Source of the DNA: Telopea speciosissima
Lineage: Eukaryota; Streptophyta; Magnoliopsida; Proteales; Proteaceae
Assembly: GCF_018873765.1 (NCBI RefSeq)
Contig: NC_057916.1
Location: 52,144,540 to 52,208,539, forward strand
Direction of reading: 5' to 3'
Length of the DNA: 64,000 nucleotides
Numbering within the stretch: position 1 is the first letter of the stretch; each line of letters starts with the position of its first letter. Positions 4,789 through 62,960 of this stretch are shown piece by piece. The notes under the pieces were generated by a model. The model was not told the DNA's origin. It saw nothing but the letters and a program-made list of their open reading frames with translations, and did no database searches. Position numbers and translations under genes: made by a program.

Positions 4789-5102
4789 GTTGACCTAAAA
4801 TGGTCATTCCTAAAGTCTGGCTCATTGAGCTAGCACGAAAAATTGACCCCTATAGGTCAGCACGAAAGTCTAGCTTATAGAGCTAGAATGAGAGTCTAGC
4901 TCGTTGAGGTAGCACGAAAGACTGACCTCCAAAGTCAGCACTAAAGACTGACCTCCAAAGTCAGCACTAAAGGCTGACCTCCAAGGTCAGCACTACAGAC
5001 TGAACTCTAAGGTCAACACGAAAGACTGATCTCTACGGTCAGCACTAAAGTCTGACCTCCGTGGTCAGCACTAAAAACTGACCTTCAAGGTCAGCATTAA
5101 AG
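4789..5102 (+). repeat. Array of 12 palindromic 26-bp units (Tat copy 1 tail junction)
   Basis: About 12 tandem units of 26 bp follow the pol end. Each unit has two complementary arms around a short loop, then a CACTAAAG-like spacer. Most units have arms CTGACC and GGTCAG. Units 2, 4 and 5 have arms CTAGCT and AGCTAG instead, so pairing is kept although the sequence changed. Plant Tat-lineage elements are known to carry variable tandem repeats in this 3' region. The array lies between the 3' end of sense pol and the 3' end of the antisense gene, as in copy 2 (45473-45755). Confidence 0.88.
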
Positions 5103-6364
5103 TAACAAAGGCAGCAAGATCATGACTTGAAGAAGAACTCAAGTGAAAAAGAAAGAGATTCTTTTATTAATTTTTCAAAGCATAAAGTACAAGTACATGA
5201 GAAGATTACGATATCCAAGAACAGTTACAAAGATCGACTCATGATCCAGGTTCCCCTTCACTACAGGAGAAAACATGGCAAACTAAGGCCCACCGGCAAC
5301 ATGAGTTCGATGTGGGCCTCCTTGGTGCTCCCAAGCAGAAGAAGGCTGATGAAGCACAAGCACCAGGGGTCGCGAAATGTGAAACAAGAGTAGCAATAAT
5401 AGACCGATACTGAGCTCGGCATTCATGGTGCAATACCACCTGTTACAGAGCGACCTCGAGAATGAAGAATAGACTGCCTTGCCAAATGGGATTCACCATC
5501 AGAGGGCTAAAGCACCAAAATAGCCCTGTTTCTACTCCTCTACCTCCGTAAGGAACGAAGAGCTTGAAGAGCACGAGCATATTATTAGCTTGGGTTCTCC
5601 AGCGCACTGATGGTTCGACATCATCACCGTCCAAATCCCTTAACAGTTGGATCGAGAGGTGGCAGCCTCCTCAAGATTCTCCACCTCTCTGATGTAACGT
5701 TCCCACTCCTAAGAGTTGGCAATGGGATGCCACATAAAGAGGAACCCTCACAGCCAGCCACCCAAAAGACATTGCATGTCGATTGAGGATTGAAGCTGTA
5801 AGGGTCACGGTCGATTGAAGATTGGAGCCGAAAGAAGCACCAACAAGAGGAGCAAGCCTCCCGAAATTTGCAGCCCCTGTATCAGAAAGGGCGTCGGCAT
5901 CGCGAGTGCCAGAGAAGGTATAAACCTCAAAGAGAAAAGCAGCATAACGACAAAGATAAGGAACCCATAGCTCTGTGAGAAGCAAAGGCACATGGAACAG
6001 AGGGCATAACCCCTATTTAAAGAGCCATGTGATGGCTCGAGATCAAGAACCATGTGAAGGGGGAGTTACGTCCAAGACCACGTGCCCTAACCTTATTGGC
6101 CTCGTACCTCCCCAAAAATTGGAGAAGGCGCAGTTACAAGGACAATGATTCAGTTTTTGTGCCAATGCCATTACACCTAGGGCCACGTGCCCATATCCCA
6201 TTGGCTCTTGGCCACTCCAAGAAACCTAAATGGCACCGTTACCGAAGCGACAATTCAACATCAACACCAGTTCCATTAATGGCAAGAGTAAATAGCATGT
6301 CAGTCAATAACAGCTCGCGATCCTACAACAAGAGGAAAGATAAGTTTACAGGGGAAAGGACTCA
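5103..6364 (-). other. Divergent segment downstream of the truncated antisense gene (Tat copy 1)
   Basis: On the minus strand this segment follows the conserved intron donor of the antisense gene, but I see no match to exons 2 and 3 of copy 2. Near 5130-5190 a T-rich stretch with ATTAATAAAAGAAT resembles the antisense 3' UTR of copy 2. At 6014-6021 the minus strand reads TTTAAATA, and upstream of it (6070-6230) are two CACGTG boxes, each close to a CCAAT box, so it looks promoter-like. The short minus-strand ORFs here are not recognised. Confidence 0.5.
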
Positions 6365-7296
6365 CCCTGTGCCGAGCTCAGCCCATGCCTAACCAACAGA
6401 GCCTCATCTATTAGATTTCGCACATCAAAGGTCGCGCCCTACGCGATGAGCTCGAGAGACCGCTGGTCGTATGAGCTCAACATGGGGACCTTGTTCACAT
6501 ACTTCGGCCGCACCCACTCCTACTCCGCTTTGAAGGGGTCGTCCTTGATGTGCGCAAAGAAGAAATGATCTTTCCACTTCTTTGCGGACTGGGGCATATG
6601 GCTTATGAACTCTTTGGGCTTCTGTGGCTCCTTCGTACCATGCAGAGCCACATAGAACCACTCATCAGTGGTCTTCTTCAGGTGAAAAAAATAAATGAAA
6701 AGCGCCCACGAGGCCTTACGACTGAGCTGGGTGAAGAACAAATAAAAACCAAAAAGCTGCTTCCAGGAATTTGCCACTAACTGACTAAGGGAGAACGTAT
6801 AGTGACGCAGCACGTCCCAAACAAACTAGTGGAGAGGGAAGCAGAGGCCGCACTGGAACGTGACCTCGTATAGGCATACGGTGCCAGGCCGTGGGGTGTT
6901 CACCCTCTCGGCTCTGGTGGGTACTCATGTCTCTACCTCTTGAGGGAACCCATACTGGGCCCTAATGGCAGCCAAGGAGCGCTCAGTTATGGTACTCTCA
7001 AAAGCTGCCACGCATGTGGGCCTCACAAAGACTTCCTCCTCGTCATCCTGAGCACCGCCGCCTTCGGCGGTGCGCTCCACTAGGCCCTCGACTGGGGCTT
7101 GCGCCCTCCCACTGGACTTGGCCGAGGAGGCTTAGGCCAAACGCCCAACTTGGGCAGCAAATTTCTTAGACCCGAAGAGTGTAGACCACTCCTCTTGGGT
7201 CCTCTCAGAACTCACTTCGGGGTCAAAACCCCCACTCATTCCAACAGCCTCATCGAGGTCCCTATCGGACTCGGCTGGAGGAGAGGAAGGTAACAT
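6365..7296 (-). pseudogene. Antisense gene exon 1, Transposase_28-like ('putative gypsy type transposon') (Tat copy 1)
   Basis: Reading leftwards from an ATG at 7296, the protein begins MLPSSPPAE and continues MSGGFDPEVSSERTQEE, then YGFPQEVETW, CLYEV, HYTFSLSQLVANSWKQLFGF and FISHMPQSAKKWKDHFFF. The same series is seen in copy 2 at 43083-44037. I recall this pattern (YGxP..., G..CLYEVAF, NSW....F) as plant family PF04195; no biochemical role is known to me. The exon ends at a donor GG|GTGAGTCC at 6365, also kept in copy 2. Stops and frameshifts occur (near 7130, 6830, 6520 and 6450). It lies antisense to the element and has its own TATA box at 7541-7547. Confidence 0.75.
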
Positions 7297-41821: not shown

Positions 41822-42406
41822 TGTTGCGTCAGGAAATTGTATCACAGCGTCCTGTGCCTGCAAAATGAGATTAGCAGAGAGGACCGGGCTGTGCCGGCGA
41901 TTCCACTCCGATGCCAAAGTCAGAATCCTTGCAATAGATGAGACTAATGGAATTTAGATGATCGTAGAAGGATGTTACCTCCCTTATTTATGGTGGGTGA
42001 TGGGCAGAATCGTGCCCTAATAGGAAAGTTGGGTTCTTGGAGTGGAGTGAGAGTGTTTAGGAGTGATTTCAGGGATAACGTTCATCCCATGATTCCCTTG
42101 GCGCCTGATTAGGCATCGTACAGGCGATAATCTTGGACCACGTTGGTTAGTGGCAAGTTTTGAGTTAGTTAGGCGAAGTATTGAGGTCGCCCCTTCATGG
42201 CATGGGCCAGGTCGCCGTCCTTTGGGTGGTGACACAGTGGCCTCCTGCGATGGCACAAGTCGCGCTCTCGTACCCCGCGATGTATGCCATTCGGCTGTTC
42301 TCGCTCTTGGTGAGCTCGTCGGTTTACTTCTGGCCTTTGTGGCCCCAGCTCGTTCCTCGCGTACTCCTCAGCTCATTCTCGTAAGGAGAGATCTCCTGAC
42401 CTATCA
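41822..42406 (-). repeat. 3' LTR (Tat copy 2)
   Basis: On the minus strand it begins TGATAGGTCAGG at 42406 and ends GCAACA at 41822. The polypurine tract AGTAGGGGGCTCG lies directly before it (42407-42419). Confidence 0.9.
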
Positions 42407-43082
42407 CGAGCCCCCTACTCCCTTGGGCGTTCTACGCCCAGGGGAGTTGAATCGATTTTGAATTCTCTGGCGTCTGCTCTTGCGCGTGCAAACATGACGT
42501 TTTGATAGCTGGATGTGACTTGACGTTCCAGTCGTCGGCTGACGTGTGGCTTAGGTCATAATGGCACCTCGATCCGAACCCTCGTCATTTCGACTTGGCG
42601 ACGTTTGATGTCCCACACGCTGCTGGCCACGTGGCCGTAGGTATTATGAGGTCTAGGCTTGATCTACGGCCGCTTGATCTCTGTCGCGGCGAGGTGCCCA
42701 TTGGTGGTGGGACACGTGTTGGGAGTCTTTATGACGCCTCGGGTATGCCCAACGTTGTTCATCCTCGGCCCTTCGATGGCTTTTGCCCTTGACCGTTGGA
42801 TCTGGATGGTTCTTCTTCATCTCTTGGCCTATAAATTAGGGCTTTCTGCCCCATTGCACTTCTTACTGCTACTTTGCGATTTTTAGACTTTTGTTTTCTC
42901 TTGTCTTCTTGCTGCTGCTCCTTACTCTAGTGCCCTGACATTTTCATCGGTCATTTGCCAGCGCCTTTAGCGAATCCTGTTCTGGTGCGCTCGTGCTGCT
43001 CGCCCTGTCTAAGCTTCGTCCTTCGTGCACGAACTTCATCTTTCCTCTCGCAAACTTTCTAGCCAGTAAGCTTTATGCAACC
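42407..43082 (+). promoter_or_regulatory. Promoter and leader of the antisense gene (Tat copy 2)
   Basis: A TATA box, CTATAAATTAGGGCTTT, covers 42829-42845. Upstream lie GCCACGTGGCC (42623-42634), a CCCATTGG box (42696-42703) and ACACGTGT (42713-42720). The leader from the TATA box to the ATG is 253 bp, like copy 1. Confidence 0.65.
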
Positions 43083-45280
43083 ATGTTTTCTTCTTCTTCT
43101 CAGGCAGAGCCTGACAGGGTCTCCGACAAAGTTGCTGGCATGAGTGGGGGTTTTGACCCCGAGGTCAGTTCTGAGAGGACCCAGGAAGAGCGGTCTACGC
43201 TCTTCGGGTCAAAGAAATTCAGTCACTGCCAAATATGGCCATTTGGCCCGTTCTTCGTCCACTCACCCTAGTTTGGGCACTCTGACCCTTGCTGTAGCCA
43301 TGGAGGAGTGAACTGCTGAGGGCAGTGAGGCTCACGACGAGGAGGAAGTAGAGGGTTCCACCTCTGAGGCCTCTGAGGAGGGCACCACAGGGGTGGAGAC
43401 CTATGAGAGCACTCTGATCGAGCGCTCTCTGATTGCTCTAAGGGACCATTACGGGTTCCCCAAGGAGGTGCACACCTGGGTGCCAACCCCAGAGGAGAGG
43501 GCGAATACTTTACGCCCTGGGATAGTGTGTCTATATGAGGTCGCATTCCAGAGCGGCCTCCGTTTGCCCATTCACCAATTCGTGGTGGATGTCCTTCGCC
43601 ACTACACCCTTTCTCCGGGTAAGCTAGTAGCGAACTCCTGGATGCAGCTCTTTGGCTTCTACATGTTCTTCGCCCAGCTTGATCGCAGGCCGTCATGGCC
43701 CTCTTTGCTTTTTTCTTTATGTTGAAGAAGACTACGGACAAGTGGTTCTACTTGGCCTTGAGCGGCATGAGGGGGTCGTTGAAGGCCGTGCACTTCATAA
43801 GCCACATGCCCCAGTCTGCGAAGAAATGGAAGGATCACTTCTTCTATGCGAGCATTCCTGGCGACCCCTTTAAGGCAGAGTGGGAGAAGGTCCGGTTGAG
43901 GATCATGAATGCCGTACCCATGCTGAGCCAGTACGACCAGGATTCTCTCAGCTTGTGCATGCAGGGCAAGGCCTTCAACGTGCACAAGTTGAAGAACGAG
44001 GATCTGTTGGTCAAGCACGGGCTGAGCTCTGCTCGGGGTGAGTGTCCTTGCCTTTAGTTTTAATTTTTCTTTCCTTATACGCTTTCACGAGCCGATCTCC
44101 TAACTTGTGTTTTCTTTGTTTTCCAGTGAACTTCAAGGTAAACCCGAGGTCGCTCCGCTCCAGTGCGGCGGAGGACAAGAAGAAGGTGCTTGTGCTACAA
44201 GCCCAGCGCATCCAAGGGATTGTTATTGGGGGGTCTACCAAAGCCCCTTCGAAGGGGAAGGATGTGCTCCCCTCAACTCTGCCACCGAAGGTCCCGTCGA
44301 AGGATAAGAGGCCTCAGGACGATGTGGTTGACCTCGAGTCGCCCGTCAGGAGGACTGCCCTGGAGAAGGGCGCTACTGAGAAAGCCCCCCTGGACACTAC
44401 CCAGGGGGTGCTGATGGAAGCTCGACCCAGGCCCCTGGGAAGGGGAGACGCCGGCTCAACTTCAGGTGGAACATCTTCGAAGGTGGCCCACCCCTAGGTG
44501 GCTAGGGAAATGATGGACTATGGCCTCCCCCTGGACCTAACCGCTGTCCGCGAACTCTCGTACGATGAGCTGGTGAACTCGTTTGCCACGGACTTCACCA
44601 AGGTAACTTTCGATTCTCATTGCGCCTTTTTCATTCTTTCTGTAATTCAGGCATTTTCTGACATGATGCTATCTTTTCAGGTCGCCCATAAGGCGAGCGA
44701 GATCAGGCAGCGAATGGAGGCCCTCGTCAAAGTGTACGAGGAAGAGAAGAAGAAGAGGAAGGTCATGGAGGAGCAGGCTCTGGACGCCGGGACGAGGATC
44801 TCGGAGCTTGAGTCCAAGGCCAAAGACCAAAAGGAGAACGTCAAGATCTTGACGGAGCGCAAGGACGAGCTGGAGTAGGAACTCGCCTTAGAGAAGAGGA
44901 AGGTCGTGGCCTTTCAGAAGGACGTGGTTGACCTGAAGGCCAATGAGGTGAGAGCCATTGAGCGGGCGATCAAGGCGTTCAAGGTCTCAAAGGAGTTGCA
45001 TACTTTCATCAGTGAGAGAGTCGAGGAGGGCTATAAGGTGGGCGTGGGCGACACCGTTCGCTTCATCCTCCAGGGGAACCCTGCCTACGACTTCTCCAAC
45101 TTCAAGTATTATGCTCCTCCTATGCCAGAGTCTCCTAGCCCTACTGACGTGGCATCTCCTGCCCTCGAGGATCCTGCAGCTCCAAGCGACCTTCCTGTCC
45201 TGGCTGATCCTCCAGCTCTCAATCTAGCTCTCCTGGCCGACGTGGCCGTTGCTTCAGACCCTCCGCCAGCCCAAAGTTGA
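43083..45280 (+). pseudogene. Antisense spliced gene, Transposase_28-like (Tat copy 2)
   Basis: ATG at 43083 (MFSSSSQAEPDR). Exon 1 runs to 44037 with MSGGFDPEVSSERTQEE, HYGFPKEVHTWVPTPEE, CLYEVAFQSGLRLPIHQF, LVANSWMQLFGFYMFF and HMPQSAKKWKDHFF. Intron 1 is 44038-44126 (GTGAGT...TTCCAG). Exon 2 runs to 44602, intron 2 is 44603-44680 (GTAACT...TTTCAG), and exon 3 ends with TGA at 45278-45280. The C-terminal third (44690-45000) is a charged coiled coil (MEALVKVYEEEKKKRK), followed by a Pro-rich tail. Damage: a frameshift between 43271 and 43393, a one-base loss near 43700, and TAG stops at 44495 and 44876 that would be CAG. I recall this as plant family PF04195. Grande-type maize elements also have an antisense gene here. 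Its role is unknown. Confidence 0.8.
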
Positions 45281-45472
45281 AGACTATGTACTTTTTTTTT
45301 TTGGTACTGGCTATCCTTTTTCTCTTTTTTTTTTTTTTTTTTTAAATGTAAATATCAGCCCTTCATTAATGAAGAATATTTTCCCCAATACTTGAGCACT
45401 TTTCTTTATTTCTCGAACTCTGTAGATCGCTTTCCTTAGAGGACAAACTTGTCGCTAGTCCCCAATGTTTCA
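45281..45472 (+). terminator. 3' UTR of the antisense gene
   Basis: T-rich runs (45290-45342) are followed by CATTAATGAAGAATATTTTC. A similar block is on the minus strand of copy 1 near 5150. I infer a 3' untranslated region; no defined poly(A) signal was found. Confidence 0.4.
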
Positions 45473-45755
45473 GTGCCGACCTTAGAGGTCGGTCTTTAGG
45501 CCAGCCACATGAACTGGTCTTTCGTGCCAACCCTTGAGATTGGTCTTTGGTGCCGACCTTAGAGGTCGGGCTTTACACCAGTCTCAAGGACTGGTCTTTC
45601 ATGCAAACCCTTGAGGTTGGTCTTTAATGCTGACCTTAGAGGTCGGGCTTTATGCCAGTCCCATGGACTGGTCTTTTATGCCAACTCTTGAGGTCAGTCT
45701 TTTGTGCCGATCTTAGAGGTCGGTCTTTTGTGCCAACCCATTGGGCTGGTCTTTT
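45473..45755 (-). repeat. Array of 11 palindromic 26-bp units with A-B-C order (Tat copy 2)
   Basis: Three unit types alternate. A has arms CCGACC and GGTCGG, B has CCAGTC and GACTGG, C has CCAACC and GGTTGG. The order read along the plus strand is A B C A B C A B C A C. Spacers read TCTTT plus a few bases. The array lies between the 3' ends of pol and of the antisense gene, as in copy 1. Confidence 0.9.
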
Positions 45756-45834: not shown

Positions 45835-47207
45835 TTATAGCGGTTTTACTGGTAAAATTTTTTCAAATTCTCTGAGTTCCAGGGTTACGGTATCTTGTTG
45901 CCTCCCGGGGTCTTCAAGCGGTATGTGCCTGGCCTTATCTGCATGGAGACCATGTAGGGTCCTTCCCATTTCGTGTCCAGCTTCCCTTGATGTTGAGGTT
46001 AGGAGGCGCTCACTTTGCACAGCACCAAGTCTCCAACCTTGAATACCCTTTCTTTTACTTTAGAGTTGTACTAGCGAGCCGTCCTTTATTGGTAGGCTAC
46101 GTTCCTTAGTAGAGCATCCTCTCTGATCTCGTCCAGGAAGTCTAGGTTGGCTCTCAACCCATCCTGGTATATCCTTTCGTTAAAGCTGAGGCTCCTTAAT
46201 GAGCCCGCTAGTATTTCCACTGGGGCCAGTGCTTCAGTCCCATAGGTCAGCCGAAATGGGCTCTCCCCCGTGGGCGTTCGAACTGTAGTTTGATAAGACC
46301 ATAAAACGCTTGGTAACTCGTCTACCCACCTTGCCTTTGCTTCAGTCAGCCTTCTTTTTATCCCAGCCAGTAGGGTATGGTTGGTGACCTCTGCTTGGCC
46401 ATTTGCCTGAGGGTAGGACACCGATTTCTCCATTTGTTGTCGCGTAATTCTTGCCAGTGGCTCTGCTTCTACCCACTTGGTGAAGTAATCCACCGCGACA
46501 ACGAGGTACTTTCTTCCTCCTGAGGCTGGGGTGAAGTTGCCCAATACGTCCATTCCCCACATAGCGAATGGAATGGGGCTAAGTACTGAGGCCAGCTCGG
46601 TGGCCGGTTGGCATGGAATGGATGCAAATTTTTGGCACTGCTCGCATGTTTTCACGTACTGGATGGCTTGCTTTTGCATGTTTGGCCAGTAGAAGCCTAG
46701 CTGAAGCACCTTGTACGCTAGATGGCGACCTCCCATGTGACTACCACATATCCCCTTGTGCACTTCTGCTAGAGTATATAGGGCACGACTTGGGGTTAGG
46801 CATCTCAATAAAGGGGAGGACACCGACCTTTTATATAGTTCTCCCTCCACCAGAGTGTATCTCGCTGTGTGTCCTCGCACCTTGCGTGCCTCGACCCTAT
46901 CCTCGGGCAAGATGTCGTCCCTTAGGTAGGCGACGATTGGGTCCATCCAACTTGGCTCCATCTCTATTGACACGACCTCTTTAACTTGGTGGGAGGGCTC
47001 GGCTAAATTTTTTATATACACCGAACCGTCCAAGCGAGCTAATGCCTCAGTGGAGAGGCGCGAGAGCACGTCAGCTTTTTCATTTTCGTTCCTTGATACT
47101 CTCTGCATCTCGAACACATAAAATGAGCTGACCAGCTCCTTGGCTATGGCAAGGTACGCCGCCATGTGGTCGTCCTTGGCCTCATAGTCCCTGTTTACTT
47201 GATTCAC
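45835..47207 (-). pseudogene. Integrase with core deletion, plus end of RNase H (Tat copy 2)
   Basis: The 373-codon ORF (46086-47207) first holds the end of RNase H (NQVNRDYEAKDDHMAAYL), then the H2C2 zinc region (HKGICGSHMGGRH ... KTCEQC) and the core with WGMDVLGNF (Asp) and PQANGQAE (Glu). Compared with copy 1, about 50 codons are missing between QMEK and YPQANG (junction near 46420). This removes the VIDNG block with the second catalytic Asp. The deletion keeps the frame, so the ORF looks intact but cannot be a working DDE enzyme. A stop at 46080-46086 separates the C-terminal domain, seen at 45835-46079. Confidence 0.88.
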
Positions 47208-47642
47208 GACCAGCTATGAATCGCCTCGTGCTGCTAATCTCTTGACTTGAATGGCCTTGGCTATTTTAAGGCCCGCTATCAGTGCCTCATATTCTGCTTC
47301 GTTATTGGATGCTGGGAATCCAAATCGGAGCGCGAACTGTATCTTGAAGCCTTCCGGGTTGGTCAAAATAAAGCCTGCTCCGCTACCTTCTGCGTTACTC
47401 GACCCATCCACGAATATGGTCCAATATGCTTCTGGACCAATCTCCTTTTCCATCTGGCCCTCTTGCTCTAGCTCGTTCTCACCCTGAGTGCATTCGACCA
47501 TGTAGTCAGCCAGGGCTTGGCCTTTTATGGTTGTCCTCAGCTTGTACTCGATTTGATACTCTCTCAGCTCTACTGCCCATGCTATTAGCCTTCCTGACAC
47601 ATTAGGCTTGTGGAGCACTTTCTTTAATGGCTGATCAGTCAT
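47208..47642 (-). pseudogene. RNase H, N-terminal part (Tat copy 2)
   Basis: The 142-codon ORF has IFVDGSSNAEGSGAGFIL (Asp) and NNEAEYEALIAGLK (Glu) and ends GDS before TAG. The TAG is followed directly by LVVNQVN in the same frame (next ORF), so it is a single in-frame stop. Copy 1 has TAG at the same codon (3153-3155). Confidence 0.88.
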
Positions 47643-48628
47643 GACTGATATTGGGGGTAGGCTTGGAAGTATGGTCTCAATTTCCTTACAGCCTTGACTA
47701 GCGCAAACGCGAGCTTCTCGATCCTTGGGTAGCTGCTCTCTACCTCTAGTAGCACGTGGCTGACTAAGTACACTGGCTCCTGTACCCCACTTTCTTCTTT
47801 TACCAGGGTAGCGCTCACTGCCACTGGCGACGTCACTAAGTACACCAACAACTCTCCTTTGGGGTCAGGTTGTGCCAACAGAGGTGGGTTGGCCAAGTAC
47901 TTCTTCAGATCCTCGAAGACTCTTTGACAGTCCTCGGTCCATGTAATGCCCTTCACTTCTTTTAAGCTGTTTAGGGTCTTGAAGAAGGGCAAACATTTGT
48001 CCCCAGATCGCAATACGAATCTGGCGAGTGTAGCTATTCTCCCATTCAGTCTCTGTACCTCGCAAACCGTCCTGGGGGGGCTCATCTCCTGGATGGCTTG
48101 TATCTTGGCTGGGTTAGCCTCAATCCCCCTTTGGGACACCATGTATCCAAGGAATTTTCTAGAGCTTACCCCGAAGGCGCACTTGGATGGGTTCAGCTTC
48201 ATTTGGTGAGCGCACAACACCTGGAACACCTCGTCAAGGTTGGCCAAGTGGTCCTCGGCTCGTATGCTTTTGACTAGCATATCATCCACGTACACCTCCA
48301 TATTCCTGCCGATCTGGGCCTTGAACATTTTGTTGACCATCCGCTGATAGGTCACCCCCACATTCTTTAAGCCGAAAGGCATAACCAAGTAGCAGAAGTT
48401 CTCCTGGTCTGAGCGAAACGTTGTGTACTTCTCGTCCCCTTCTTTCATCAGGATCGGGTTGTACCCCGAGTACACATCCATGAAACTTAACCTTTCATGT
48501 CTGGCGGTTGTGTCTATCAGGAGGTCTATTCTGGGGAGAGGGTACTTGTCCTTTGGGCAAGCCTTGTTGAGGTCGGTGTAGTCTACACACATCCTCCATT
48601 TTCCATTAGGCTTTGGCACCATCACCAC
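47639..48628 (-). pseudogene. Reverse transcriptase (Tat copy 2)
   Basis: A 329-codon open frame starts at MVMVPKPNGKWRMCVDYTDL and includes LSFMDVYSGYN, VMPFGLKNVG, VYVDDMLVKS (YVDD active site), FLGYMVSQRGIEANP and the connection domain with WTEDCQRVFEDLK. Active-site residues are all present. The upstream part (48629-48974) continues in the same polyprotein but has a TAG where the family has Trp (PTWLAN) and a TAG after KKLVQ. The latter TAG is at the same codon as in copy 1. Confidence 0.9.
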
Positions 48629-50095
48629 ATTGGCTAGCTATGTAGGGAACTGCTCCTCCCTAATAAAGCCTAAGGCTTTCAACCTTTCTATTTCTTCCTT
48701 CATTGCGGTCTGCAGCTCCGGGGCGAAGCTTCTTCTCTTCTATTGGACCAGTTTTTTAGCTGGGTCCACGTGCAGGGTGTGCTCTGCAATGTGGTGTGGG
48801 ATGCCTGGCATATCCGCGGTAGTCCAGGTAAACAAGTTAGCGTTCTTTAAGAGGAACGACGCGAGCTCTTTTGCCTCTTCCTCCTTTAGCAGGGCCTCCA
48901 TCTTCACGATCTTCGCGGGGTGTTGGTCATCAATCACGATCTCAACGAGCTCTTTGACTAGTTCGCCTTGTTGATAGCGCTGATCGTCCTCACGGTTGTC
49001 GATAACTTCTACTGCGAAGACTGTCCCCCTGCAGTTGCCCTTGATCTGCCTTAAAAAGGCAGCGTGGCATTCTTGAGCCTTTTTTTACTCGGTTCGGCAT
49101 TCCCCTATGCCGTTAGGGGTGGAGAACTTGACTTTTAGGTGCTTGGTGGAGACCACAATTCCCAGCTTGTTCAGGCTTGGCCTACCAAGGATAACATTGT
49201 AGGCAGTCACGACCTGAACGACCATAAAGTTTACCTTTATGGTTTTTTGACAGAGGGCGGTCCCCACTGTCATTAGGAGTTCCATCGGCCCCTCGATCGG
49301 GGCGGGTACTCCTGAGAACCCGTACAATGGCGTAAGGGTGTCAAAACCAAACCGAAACCGTTTACCAAAATCAAACCGAACTATTTAAACCGAAATCGAT
49401 AGACCGTTTAGTTAAATGGTCCGGTTATGGTTTTAGAAATGACATCGTTTATTTAATCGGTTTGGTTTGGTTTAGACCGATTAATCCAACTGTTTCAAAC
49501 CGTATAATCCAATTAAAACCGATTATAACCAAACCGTCTAACTGTTTAAAAACCTAACAACTTTTGTTTTTTGATAAACAAAAAATCAAAACCTAGCAAG
49601 TAGCAACTACTAAGTAGTCACGTTTCTTCATAAATGATTTCCTTTCTCAAAAAAAAAAAAAAACTAATAACTTAGTAAGTAATAAGTAATAACTATTAAC
49701 TAATAACTAGTATTAGTAAATAGAGTAGCAAATGTGTATAGAACCGTATAACCAAAACCGTGTAAAACCGTATAGAACCATTTAACCGAAGCCATTTAAA
49801 AACCGTTTAACTGAAACCATTTACTAAACGGTCTAGGTTTTGATTATCAGACTGTTTAGTTAAACGGTCTGGTTACGGTTTCTACCCTTAAGCAATCAAA
49901 ACCGAACTGAACTGAACTATTTAACCGAAATCGAATCGTTTAACACCCTTACAATGGCGCGGTCTCAGGCTTCAGCGTGCCAAGCTCGAACCCAAACTAC
50001 AAATAGGCATCATATGATAGCATGGCGACCGACGCCCCCGTGTCCACCAAGATCCTGTGCACGGGTCAGTTGGCCATGATTGCCTAAACCACGAC
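48629..50095 (-). pseudogene. Protease region split by an hAT-like element (Tat copy 2)
   Basis: The part nearer gag (49960-50095) has RILVDTGASVAML with the D-T-G motif. The part nearer RT (49085-49327) has GFSGVPAPIEGPMELLM, VNFMVVQVVTAYNVILGRP and FSTPNGIGE. Between them lies the 619-bp element at 49333-49951. The linker to RT (48629-49084) contains ELVEIVIDDQHPAKIVKMEA and the KKLVQ-TAG-KRR site. Broken. Confidence 0.8.
49333..49951. mobile_element. 619-bp hAT-like element in protease
   Basis: TIRs TAAGGGTGTCAAAACC and (inverted) TAAGGGTGTTAAACG are flanked by the exact 8-bp target duplication CAATGGCG at 49325-49332 and 49952-49959. The interior is a long series of AAACCG and CGGTTT motifs on both strands, with no coding sequence. 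Confidence 0.9.
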
Positions 50096-52280: not shown

Positions 52281-52870
52281 TATTGCATCAGGAAATTGTA
52301 TCAGAGCGTCTTGTGCCTGCAAAATGAGATTAGCAGAGAGGACCGGGCTGTGCCGACGATTCCACTCCGATGCCTAAGTTAGAATCCTTGCAATAGATGA
52401 GAATAATGGAATTCAGATGATCGTAGAAGGATGTTACCTCCCTTATTTATGGTGGATGATGGGCAGACTCGTGCCCTAATAGGAAAGCTGGGTTATCAGA
52501 GTGGAGTGAGAGTGTTTAGGAGTGATTTCAGGGATAACGTTCATCCTATGATTCCCTTGGCGCCTGATTAGGCATCGTACGGGTGATAATCTCAGGCCAT
52601 GTTGGTTAGTGGCAAGTTTTGAGTTAGTTAGGTGAAGTATTGAGGTCGCCCCTTCATGGCACGGGCCAAGTCGTTGTCCTTTGGGTGGTGACATAGCGAC
52701 CTCCTGCGATGGCATGAGCCGCGCTCTCATACTGTGCCCCGCGATGTATGCCGTTCGGCTGTTCTTGCTCTTAGTGAGGTCGTTGGTTCGCGTATGGCCT
52801 TTGTGGCCCCAGCTTGTTCCTCGCTTACTCTTTAACTTGTTCTTGTAAGGAGAGATCTCTTGACCTATCA
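52281..52870 (-). repeat. 5' LTR (Tat copy 2)
   Basis: On the minus strand it begins TGATAGGTCAAG at 52870 and ends GCAATA at 52281. It matches 41822-42406 with scattered changes. No strong TATA was found. Confidence 0.9.
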
Positions 52871-61222: not shown

Positions 61223-62960
61223 ATGGAGACTTCTTAATCGGTTTGGGTGGCTAAAGTATGGACCCGTGACTCTACCAACCGACTCGTAAGAGTACAAAGT
61301 TTGACCATGCTCGACCAAACTCAGCCTAGGACTCTTAAGGATAGGTTCTACCCTACCAGGGCTGCACAGCCTTCTTACATCAGTCTACCTACTACTACAA
61401 GAAATAATTATGAACTCAAGTCAAACTTCATTAGTATGCTGCCCCATTTCCATGGGATGACCAATAAAGATGCCTATCTCTTCCTTAGGGAATTTGAGGA
61501 GGTGTGTGTTCTGATCAAAGTACAAAATTTGTCTGATGATGTAGTTAGACTTCGGTTCATCACCTTTGCTCTGAAAGATCAAGCCAAGAAGTGGCTCTAT
61601 GGTCTGCCGACTAATTCCTTGCTACATGGGATCACTTTTCGATTGTCTTCTTAAAATTTTTCCCTCTTCACAAAACCAATAAACTCAAGAGTGACATTCT
61701 TCAATTTAGGCAGAAACCACATGAGTCATTCTCTAGATTTATGGAAAGGTTCAAGGATCTTCTGTTAGAATGCCCTCACCATGGAATTGACTTGTGACAA
61801 CTTTGCCAAATCATTTATGAGGGCATTGACTTTCAGATCAAGTAGCTACTAGAATCTATGCGTCCCACTAGATTTACATCTTTTACGGATAAGAATGGGG
61901 CTTGGACGTTTTTGACCAACTTGGCTGATAAGACTAGGGAATGGGAGTCCACTAAAGAGGCTGAAAGGACCACTAAGGGTTACCTCATTGAGGGTGTACT
62001 AGCCAAGGAAGCCAAATTAGATAGTCTCATCAAAAGGTTGGAAGCCATAGTTCCTAAAGAGCTTGTCCCGGTTAACTAAGTCAACCAGGCCCCCATGTGC
62101 AGTTGGTGCCATACACCTGGTCATCTCATGGAGGAATGTCCTAACACCTTTGTGGGTAATTCCAACACTGAAAATTTAAGTGCTCTTTATCAGAACAATC
62201 CATATAGCAACACTTATAATCCAGGATGGAGAAATCACCCTAATTTCTCCTAGAACTAAAGGAATCAAGCAGGCCCATCTAACTTCCACCATTAAGGCCA
62301 GCCTGATCCCCAAAGGCCTAATTTTGTACCACCAAACCCAAGTTTGGCTCCTCATTCTCTTCCCCCTCGTCCTCATTTAAGACCTCATTTAAGACCTCAA
62401 ATGAATTCTGCTAGGCCACCTCTCCTTGCATCCTATCAGCAACCCCTTGGGTTTACTAATACTAGAGAGGCAGCAAGAACAAGTGAGCTAGAGAAAAGCA
62501 TGGCCCTTCTCATGACAAGCCACAATAATGTGGAGAAGCAACTCACCCAGCTTGTCACAATCTTGCATGAGAGGGAAAAAGGAAAATTGCCTAGCCAGCC
62601 AGAGCCGAATCCTAGACATCAGGCTCTAACTCAATAAGGAACCCATGCTCCTCAGCTCAATGTTGCACAAGGTCAACAACATCTAGGGCCCTTCAGCCAG
62701 ATTAATGCAGTATATGCTTTACGGAGTGGCCATGAGTATCAACAGGTTAGTACCCCCTCAGTCTTTACCATCTAACATTCCCATTGACTCTCCCCCTACT
62801 GATGAGGCCGTTGTAGTGCCTTCTGTTCCAGGTTCGTCTGATGAACCTGAAAAAGTTCAAGATGATTTGATTGATGAAACTAAAGATGATTCTTTTAAGA
62901 AAGTCAAAGAGACCACCCCTAAAAGAGTGTACTCCACCTGCCCCATTCCCAAATAGATTG
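61223..62960 (+). pseudogene. Athila gag
   Basis: It probably starts at METS (61223), with a TAA at codon 5 that would be CAA. The gag core follows with LPHFHGMTNKDAYLFLREFE, LRFITFALKDQAKKWLYGLP, ILQFRQKPHESFSRFMERFK and TREWESTKEAERTTKGYL. A CCHC zinc knuckle is at 62098-62142 (CSWCHTPGHLMEEC), and then a Pro/Asn-rich part and AVYALRSGHEYQQ near 62710. In-frame stops at 61795, 61843, 62078, 62251 and 62635 mostly stand for Gln or Trp. Gag forms the particle and binds RNA. Confidence 0.88.

Follow-up and report, generated by a model that had tools for sequence, protein, structure and literature searches.

Retand retrotransposons carry antisense ORFs encoding a TRP28 domain in 97% of their recently active clusters, and a regulatory role has been suggested for these ORFs (Vicient 2025, PMC11963269; see also PMC7264820). 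The available text of that survey treats the origin and function of the TRP28 antisense protein as open; its ORFs were sought one at a time with ORF Finder, and the word "intron" occurs 0 times in the main text (PMC11963269). Extra ORFs had been counted in thousands of Ty3/gypsy elements in a 2019 survey, according to its accessible sections (PMC6317226). GENE23 of maize Grande (Gomez-Orte 2013), as summarised in PMC7264820, lies in antisense, has its own promoter and encodes a nuclear protein. The same source, in the portion available, places the antisense promoter of HTLV in the 3' LTR and calls for the examination of antisense and spliced transcripts (PMC7264820). Plant LTR elements are generally described as devoid of introns, Ogre and EVADE being named as notable exceptions in the available part of a 2025 review (PMC12786077). 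Our search of the open-access literature, which covers subscription papers thinly, uncovered no mention of introns in this antisense TRP28 gene; this is no proof of priority.

Here we describe a 64,000-nucleotide stretch of Telopea speciosissima DNA (hereafter the window) containing two copies of such an antisense gene. The gene of copy 2 (42829-45280, plus strand) is predicted to consist of three exons and two introns lying opposite gag-pol, and copy 1 retains exon 1 (Table 1).

Host element and its setting

The gag-pol genes of the element hosting copy 2 are on the minus strand and the antisense gene is on the plus strand, between pol and the 3' LTR; the antisense placement proposed in the initial annotation is thus borne out by the pol domains. 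The two LTRs (585 and 590 bp) align over 588 columns with 51 mismatches and 5 gap positions, and the element is therefore old. Its flanks, GGGCA and AGGCA, resemble a target-site duplication bearing one change. The antisense TRP28 ORF that marks Retand elements in the interval separating pol from the 3' LTR is present here in the plus orientation (PF04195, 1.4e-10) against a minus-strand pol. The LTRs, the internal part (9874 bp) and the interval from pol to the 3' LTR (~3679 bp, pol being taken to end with the integrase ORF, which is possibly truncated) are all within the ranges given for Retand in the available survey text, namely 315-1194 bp, 7380-12869 bp and ~2933-6566 bp, respectively (PMC11963269). 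Based on its Pfam domains, its antisense TRP28 ORF and its dimensions, we assign the host element, as a prediction, to the Retand/Tat type of Ty3/gypsy elements.

Tandem repeats occupy the interval between antisense gene and pol in both elements, the copy 1 array being located at 4907-5102. The two arrays are based on 26 bp and are about 70% alike. Elsewhere in the window, a plant snoRNA, snoR71 (RF00097), was detected at 61681-61787 on the minus strand (45.4 bits, cut-off 40).

Table 1. Coordinates, within the window, of the antisense genes and of the features surrounding them.
Feature	Position	Strand	Remarks
Copy 1 exon 1, stop codons inside	6366..7296	-	TATA 7547 (CTATAAATTGGGGCTTT), ATG 7296, donor GT 6365-6364
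Second antisense unit (copy 1 module)	6021-5163	-	TATA-like box 6021, ~850 bp conserved, AATAAA 5168-5163
3' LTR of host element	41822..42406	-	Pairs with 52281-52870
TATA box of antisense gene	42829..42845	+	423 bp into element from 3' LTR
Exon 1: start codon 43083, TRP28 domain, ends in phase 1, broken	43083..44037	+	PF04195, E 1.4e-10; dN/dS 0.20-0.27 in three pieces
Intron 1, GT-AG, phase 1	44038..44126	+	Conserved splice sites
Exon 2, linker, stop codon in copy 2	44127..44602	+	dN/dS 0.37
Intron 2, GT-AG, phase 0	44603..44680	+	Conserved splice sites
Exon 3: KKKRKV cluster, coiled coil, C-terminal block, stop TGA; internal stop in copy 2	44681..45280	+	dN/dS 0.27
Poly(A)-like signals TGTAAATA and AATGAA (UGUA/AAUGAA), after stop	45347..45373	+
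Tandem repeat, 77-bp unit, between antisense gene and pol	45472..45754	+
pol (RT, RNase H, integrase), broken	46086..48637	-	Pfam PF00078, PF17919, PF17921
5' LTR of host element	52281..52870	-	Pairs with 41822-42406

Gene model and its signals

A DNA search of the 823 Mb genome, with a query that included the introns, yielded 41 rows: the window, 31 places that were fetched and 9 weaker or partial matches that were left aside. Scoring covered 40 of the 202 candidates, which makes the copy numbers minimum estimates. The alignment comprises 33 rows (copy 2, copy 1 and the 31 loci), and tests of selection and conservation were run on 31 of them, copy 1 (which is without exons 2-3) and L038 (a near duplicate of L035) being excluded. 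L035 and L038 lie about 15 kb apart on opposite strands of contig C3, with a dS of 0.040 over 559 codons; this inverted, nearly identical pair is perhaps a local duplication.

The initial annotation had proposed a TATA box in both copies, a start codon 251-253 bp downstream and an identical intron-1 donor, and all three were recovered. The box of copy 2 reads CTATAAATTAGGGCTTT, with TATA at 42830 and the ATG 253 bp further on; the corresponding distance in copy 1 is 251 bp. The core TATAAATT was conserved in 27 of the 28 rows that reach the site, where the distance from TATA to ATG ranges from 212 to 262 bp (median 252.5, n = 28), and the best-conserved 10-bp windows within 42450-43083 start at 42827-42828. 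The donor context is identical in the two copies, the last exon base of copy 1 being 6366. At the other end of the gene, the copy 2 frame terminates with a stop codon at 45278-45280, and AATGAA or AATAAA was present in 22 of the 23 rows reaching the poly(A) site (8 more rows end short of it). The first exon junction splits a valine codon (G^TG, phase 1) and the second is in phase 0.

Copy 2 is itself dead, its exon 1 carrying frame changes and its exons 2 and 3 being interrupted by stop codons, and none of the 31 rows of the window family searched for an intact copy was free of stops (0/31). We nonetheless regard a coding antisense gene, equipped with its own signals and selected while the family replicated, as very probable from these sequence comparisons.

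Both introns are retained

The two GT-AG introns initially predicted in copy 2 have kept most of their terminal dinucleotides across the alignment. Among the 33 rows, one of them gapped at each site, GT was found at donor 1 in 31/32 and at donor 2 in 30/32, and AG at acceptor 1 in 29/32 and at acceptor 2 in 28/32. Intron 1 measures 84-101 nt and intron 2 72-81 nt in 31 rows. Thymine makes up 0.505 and 0.473 of the introns as opposed to 0.18-0.25 of the exons. A search of 31 rows for the loss of either intron yielded no row without intron 1 or intron 2; L028, which suffered a deletion at the end of exon 1, still has both. The first reading of the locus had taken intron retention to fit replication through the sense RNA only, and the presence of both introns in 31/31 rows agrees with it. 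The underlying argument is sound: a spliced antisense mRNA, if reverse transcribed, would give copies lacking the introns, and every aligned copy tested keeps them. On the sense strand the introns appear as CT...AC, and no splicing is expected there. We propose that the introns have been kept because reverse transcription acts on the sense genomic RNA alone.

Selection on the antisense protein

Codon position 3 was the least conserved in 5/5 exon pieces, while no codon rhythm was found in intron 1, the 5' UTR or the upstream DNA. In the predicted frame, the 465 pairs had a median dN/dS of 0.28, no whole-gene pair reached 1, and the individual exon pieces ranged from 0.20 to 0.37. The four frames other than the predicted one and its mirror gave 0.71-1.49 across pieces. 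Stop codons numbered 10.1 per 1000 codons in the predicted frame versus 20.2-48.0 in the other five. The reading frame of pol served as a positive control: dN/dS was 0.094 for RT (66 pairs, rows with enough codons) and 0.125 for integrase (120 pairs from 16 rows). At 0.28 against 0.09-0.13, the antisense protein is therefore less constrained than pol.

The ratio is nearly constant across dS classes (0.28-0.30), whether the pairs are close or distant. The median dS of 0.81 far exceeds the LTR divergence of the window element, the one dated copy, which suggests that most of the change arose during replication of the family. The initial annotation had named in advance a dN/dS near 1 as the outcome that would speak against a gene; the median reported above is far from it, and six closer pairs of the related groups B and C described below (dS 0.13-0.23) gave 0.195-0.592. 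Indel lengths were less telling. Shared gaps were multiples of 3 in 13/28 cases in exons versus 8/36 outside (Fisher p 0.060), and all gap intervals in 30/110 versus 32/153; this test is probably weak since private indels of dead copies dominate. Judged from the substitution patterns, the antisense protein is under purifying selection during family replication. With the splice sites kept as well, the claim of a real gene instead of a chance ORF stands.

Features of the predicted protein

The TRP28 match of exon 1 scores 41.7 bits, above the cut-off of 26.2, and the exon 1 profile found no match among solved structures at E values up to 10. In exon 3, at least 4 basic residues occupy the six-residue core of the KKKRKV cluster in 30/31 rows. 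A pattern search picked up KNKRK or KKRK clusters among group B and group D loci, and listed no NLS-like pattern in group C. We infer that the basic clusters act as nuclear localisation signals, and the product of the antisense gene is probably a nuclear protein, as is reported for GENE23 of Grande (PMC7264820). The coiled-coil C-terminus, also part of the initial description of copy 2, is supported by a 3.5-residue hydrophobic rhythm in exon 3 which was reached by a fraction of 0.0004 of 5000 permutations. The three other groups display this rhythm at 0.004-0.012 of permutations, 3.5 not being the strongest period in L048 and L041.

Introns are common to distant TRP28 groups

Searching the genome with PF04195 (150 of 2440 candidates scored), we fetched 14 loci, picked for spread and open frames, and grouped them by eye into B (5), C (6) and D (3). 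The window protein is 34-37% identical to these proteins (six loci, exon 1 aligned), and synonymous sites are saturated between groups B and C. Intron 1 was found at the same place and in the same phase in 13 of the 14 loci, 11 with an AG acceptor and two, L047 and L048, with AA; its site is interrupted in L049. Both ends of intron 2 were recognised by pattern in 11/14. Since positions and phases are common to all four groups, the introns are older than the split of the TRP28 groups, their separate acquisition at identical sites being far less probable. A TATAAA was found in the fetched upstream DNA of 4/5 B, 2/3 D and 1/6 C loci; it was sought upstream of L051 and L053 and not found. Four stretches of the viral_contigs collection fitted a pattern when relatives were sought there, and 0 were confirmed.

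Two side observations concern these groups. The upstream DNA of a group C locus (L048:1-540) has no TATAAA and may include an extra GT...AG intron within the 5' UTR. In group D, an extra antisense ORF follows the TRP28 gene; it encodes 175 aa with a coiled-coil look in L042 (2715-3239 of the reverse complement) and L057 (3051-3575, plus strand), and is cut by the locus end in L041 (3058-3393).

Copy 1 and a second antisense unit

Copy 1 is dead too, with stop codons in exon 1, a piece of which matches PF04195 at 6.2e-5 and 23.6 bits, under the cut-off of 26.2. A search for similarity to exons 2-3 in copy 1 found none, and the intron-1 acceptor is also absent. Comparison of sibling copies revealed a deletion of ~1.7 kb relative to L055. 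These parts are missing because the deletion joins intron 1 (at ~6302) to a downstream module, which in L055 and L056 comes after a full set of TRP28 exons.

This module contains a second antisense unit, found in the copy 1 family and in group D (L055, L056, L057) and present, whole or in part, at no fewer than ~39 other genome places (40 of 305 candidates scored). In 10 copies, codon rhythm was absent, dN/dS was 0.61-0.70 in all six frames and 4/32 indels were multiples of 3. Since no frame stands out and few indels keep a frame, the unit looks non-coding, and on these sequence statistics it is probably so.

Within it, a two-hairpin stretch (5680-5809) has 97.1% of its cells paired. Four pairs have both partners altered, in a total of 12 cells; such counts are inflated by relatedness. 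The structure was derived from the very alignment used to judge it. None of 500 shuffles equalled the percentage of paired cells, the 12 doubly altered cells or the covariation score, but 110 attained the 4 altered pairs and 377 the observed variety of pair types; structures slid along the alignment pair in 42-55%. The cells include 43 G-U and 7 A-C combinations, which favours the antisense strand as the hairpin RNA. Out of 37 sources, the hairpin model matched copy 1, L055, L056 and L057 (copy 1 and three of these four had gone into building it), and it gave one further weak match on the opposite strand at 5740-5826; many group B and C loci are too short to reach the stretch. An Rfam search of the copy 1 module returned nothing above cut-off and one match far below.

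Proposed function and alternative explanations

Our best reading, with a probability of roughly 0.7, is that copy 2 is the relic of a coding gene of a Retand-type element, whose spliced antisense mRNA would have encoded a nuclear coiled-coil regulator. For the regulator function taken by itself, the odds are about even. In this model, RNA polymerase II would start an antisense pre-mRNA at the internal promoter, which would be spliced and exported to produce a TRP28 protein with its basic NLS-like cluster and coiled coil. The protein would then enter the nucleus, dimerise and act in trans on the DNA or chromatin of the element, most likely regulating its transcription or silencing. Reverse transcription would proceed from the sense genomic RNA only, and the antisense introns would thereby stay in place.

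As to origin, we tentatively suggest that the antisense strand of the spacer between pol and the 3' LTR is an ancient cassette derived from an intron-bearing nuclear gene. It might have been acquired through DNA or antisense read-through RNA, not processed mRNA, against which the conserved intron positions speak, and in at least two lineages it may also hold a second, TATA-led unit for a structured non-coding RNA.

It is rather unlikely, albeit worth weighing, that the protein serves the particle or pre-integration complex, in nuclear import or the choice of integration site, and not transcription. Such a role is discussed in the available text of PMC7264820 and would suit the NLS-like cluster of exon 3, but a promoter apart from the genomic RNA for Gag and Pol would not suggest a particle component, and the antisense gene exceeds pol two- to threefold in dN/dS. 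We hold it to be improbable that the antisense RNA itself is what matters, by forming dsRNA or controlling silencing, with the reading frame secondary. This idea is raised in PMC7264820, as far as its accessible text goes, and the promoter and poly(A)-like signals would yield such an RNA; against it, selection on amino acids extends to all three exons and the splice sites are kept, a double role being conceivable.

The introns might further be coding or spacer DNA with GT and AG by chance, which we judge highly improbable. Intron 2 lends the notion some colour, being the more uniform of the two (78 nt in 21/31 rows), a multiple of 3 in 23/31 and stop-free in 19/31, with uneven conservation by phase (0.62, 0.66 and 0.55 over ~60 columns), and intron 1 is stop-free in 7/31. 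Yet no clear codon signal emerges inside the introns, their positions and phases are identical in four groups, and intron 1 lengths fall into all three classes modulo 3 (13, 10 and 8 of 31 rows), read-through from exon 1 hitting a stop in 24/31; therefore, mostly only splicing would join exon 2 in frame. Finally, that the frame consists of chance ORFs or mirrors a sense-strand gene is barely credible: minus-strand ORFs of 159 and 141 aa do overlap exon 1 and the mirror frame has a dN/dS of 0.28-0.49 by piece, but this exceeds that of the plus frame in 5/5 pieces, its stop density is twice as high, and the splice, TATA and poly(A) signals are all oriented the opposite way.

Comparison with known systems

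The gene described here resembles the TRP28 ORFs of Retand elements, as presented in the available survey text, in its antisense location between pol and the 3' LTR, its TRP28 domain, the tandem repeats nearby and the size of the element (PMC11963269). Those ORFs are described there as single ORFs, whereas the window gene adds three exons, two introns, a TATA box, poly(A)-like signals and measured selection. Surveys for single long ORFs may thus catch only the exon with the TRP28 domain, and the conserved introns predict spliced RNA that should be findable in existing plant long-read data. Going by the accessible description, gene23 of Grande shares with the window gene the antisense place, a promoter of its own and, probably, a nuclear product (PMC7264820). 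HBZ of HTLV, as cited in PMC11963269, is an antisense nuclear regulator in a retroelement; the HTLV antisense promoter is located in the 3' LTR according to the text available, unlike the TATA box of the window gene, which is inside the element (PMC7264820).

Ogre and EVADE share with the window gene the presence of introns in a plant LTR retrotransposon. Their introns, following the available part of the review, make subgenomic element RNAs, (PMC12786077), while those of the window belong to an antisense gene and would not be removed by replication through sense RNA. Antisense orientation is what would let an element copied through RNA keep its introns. The intron-based retrotransposition reporter would then have a natural equivalent in the window introns, which replication would not remove if their splicing is confined to the antisense strand.
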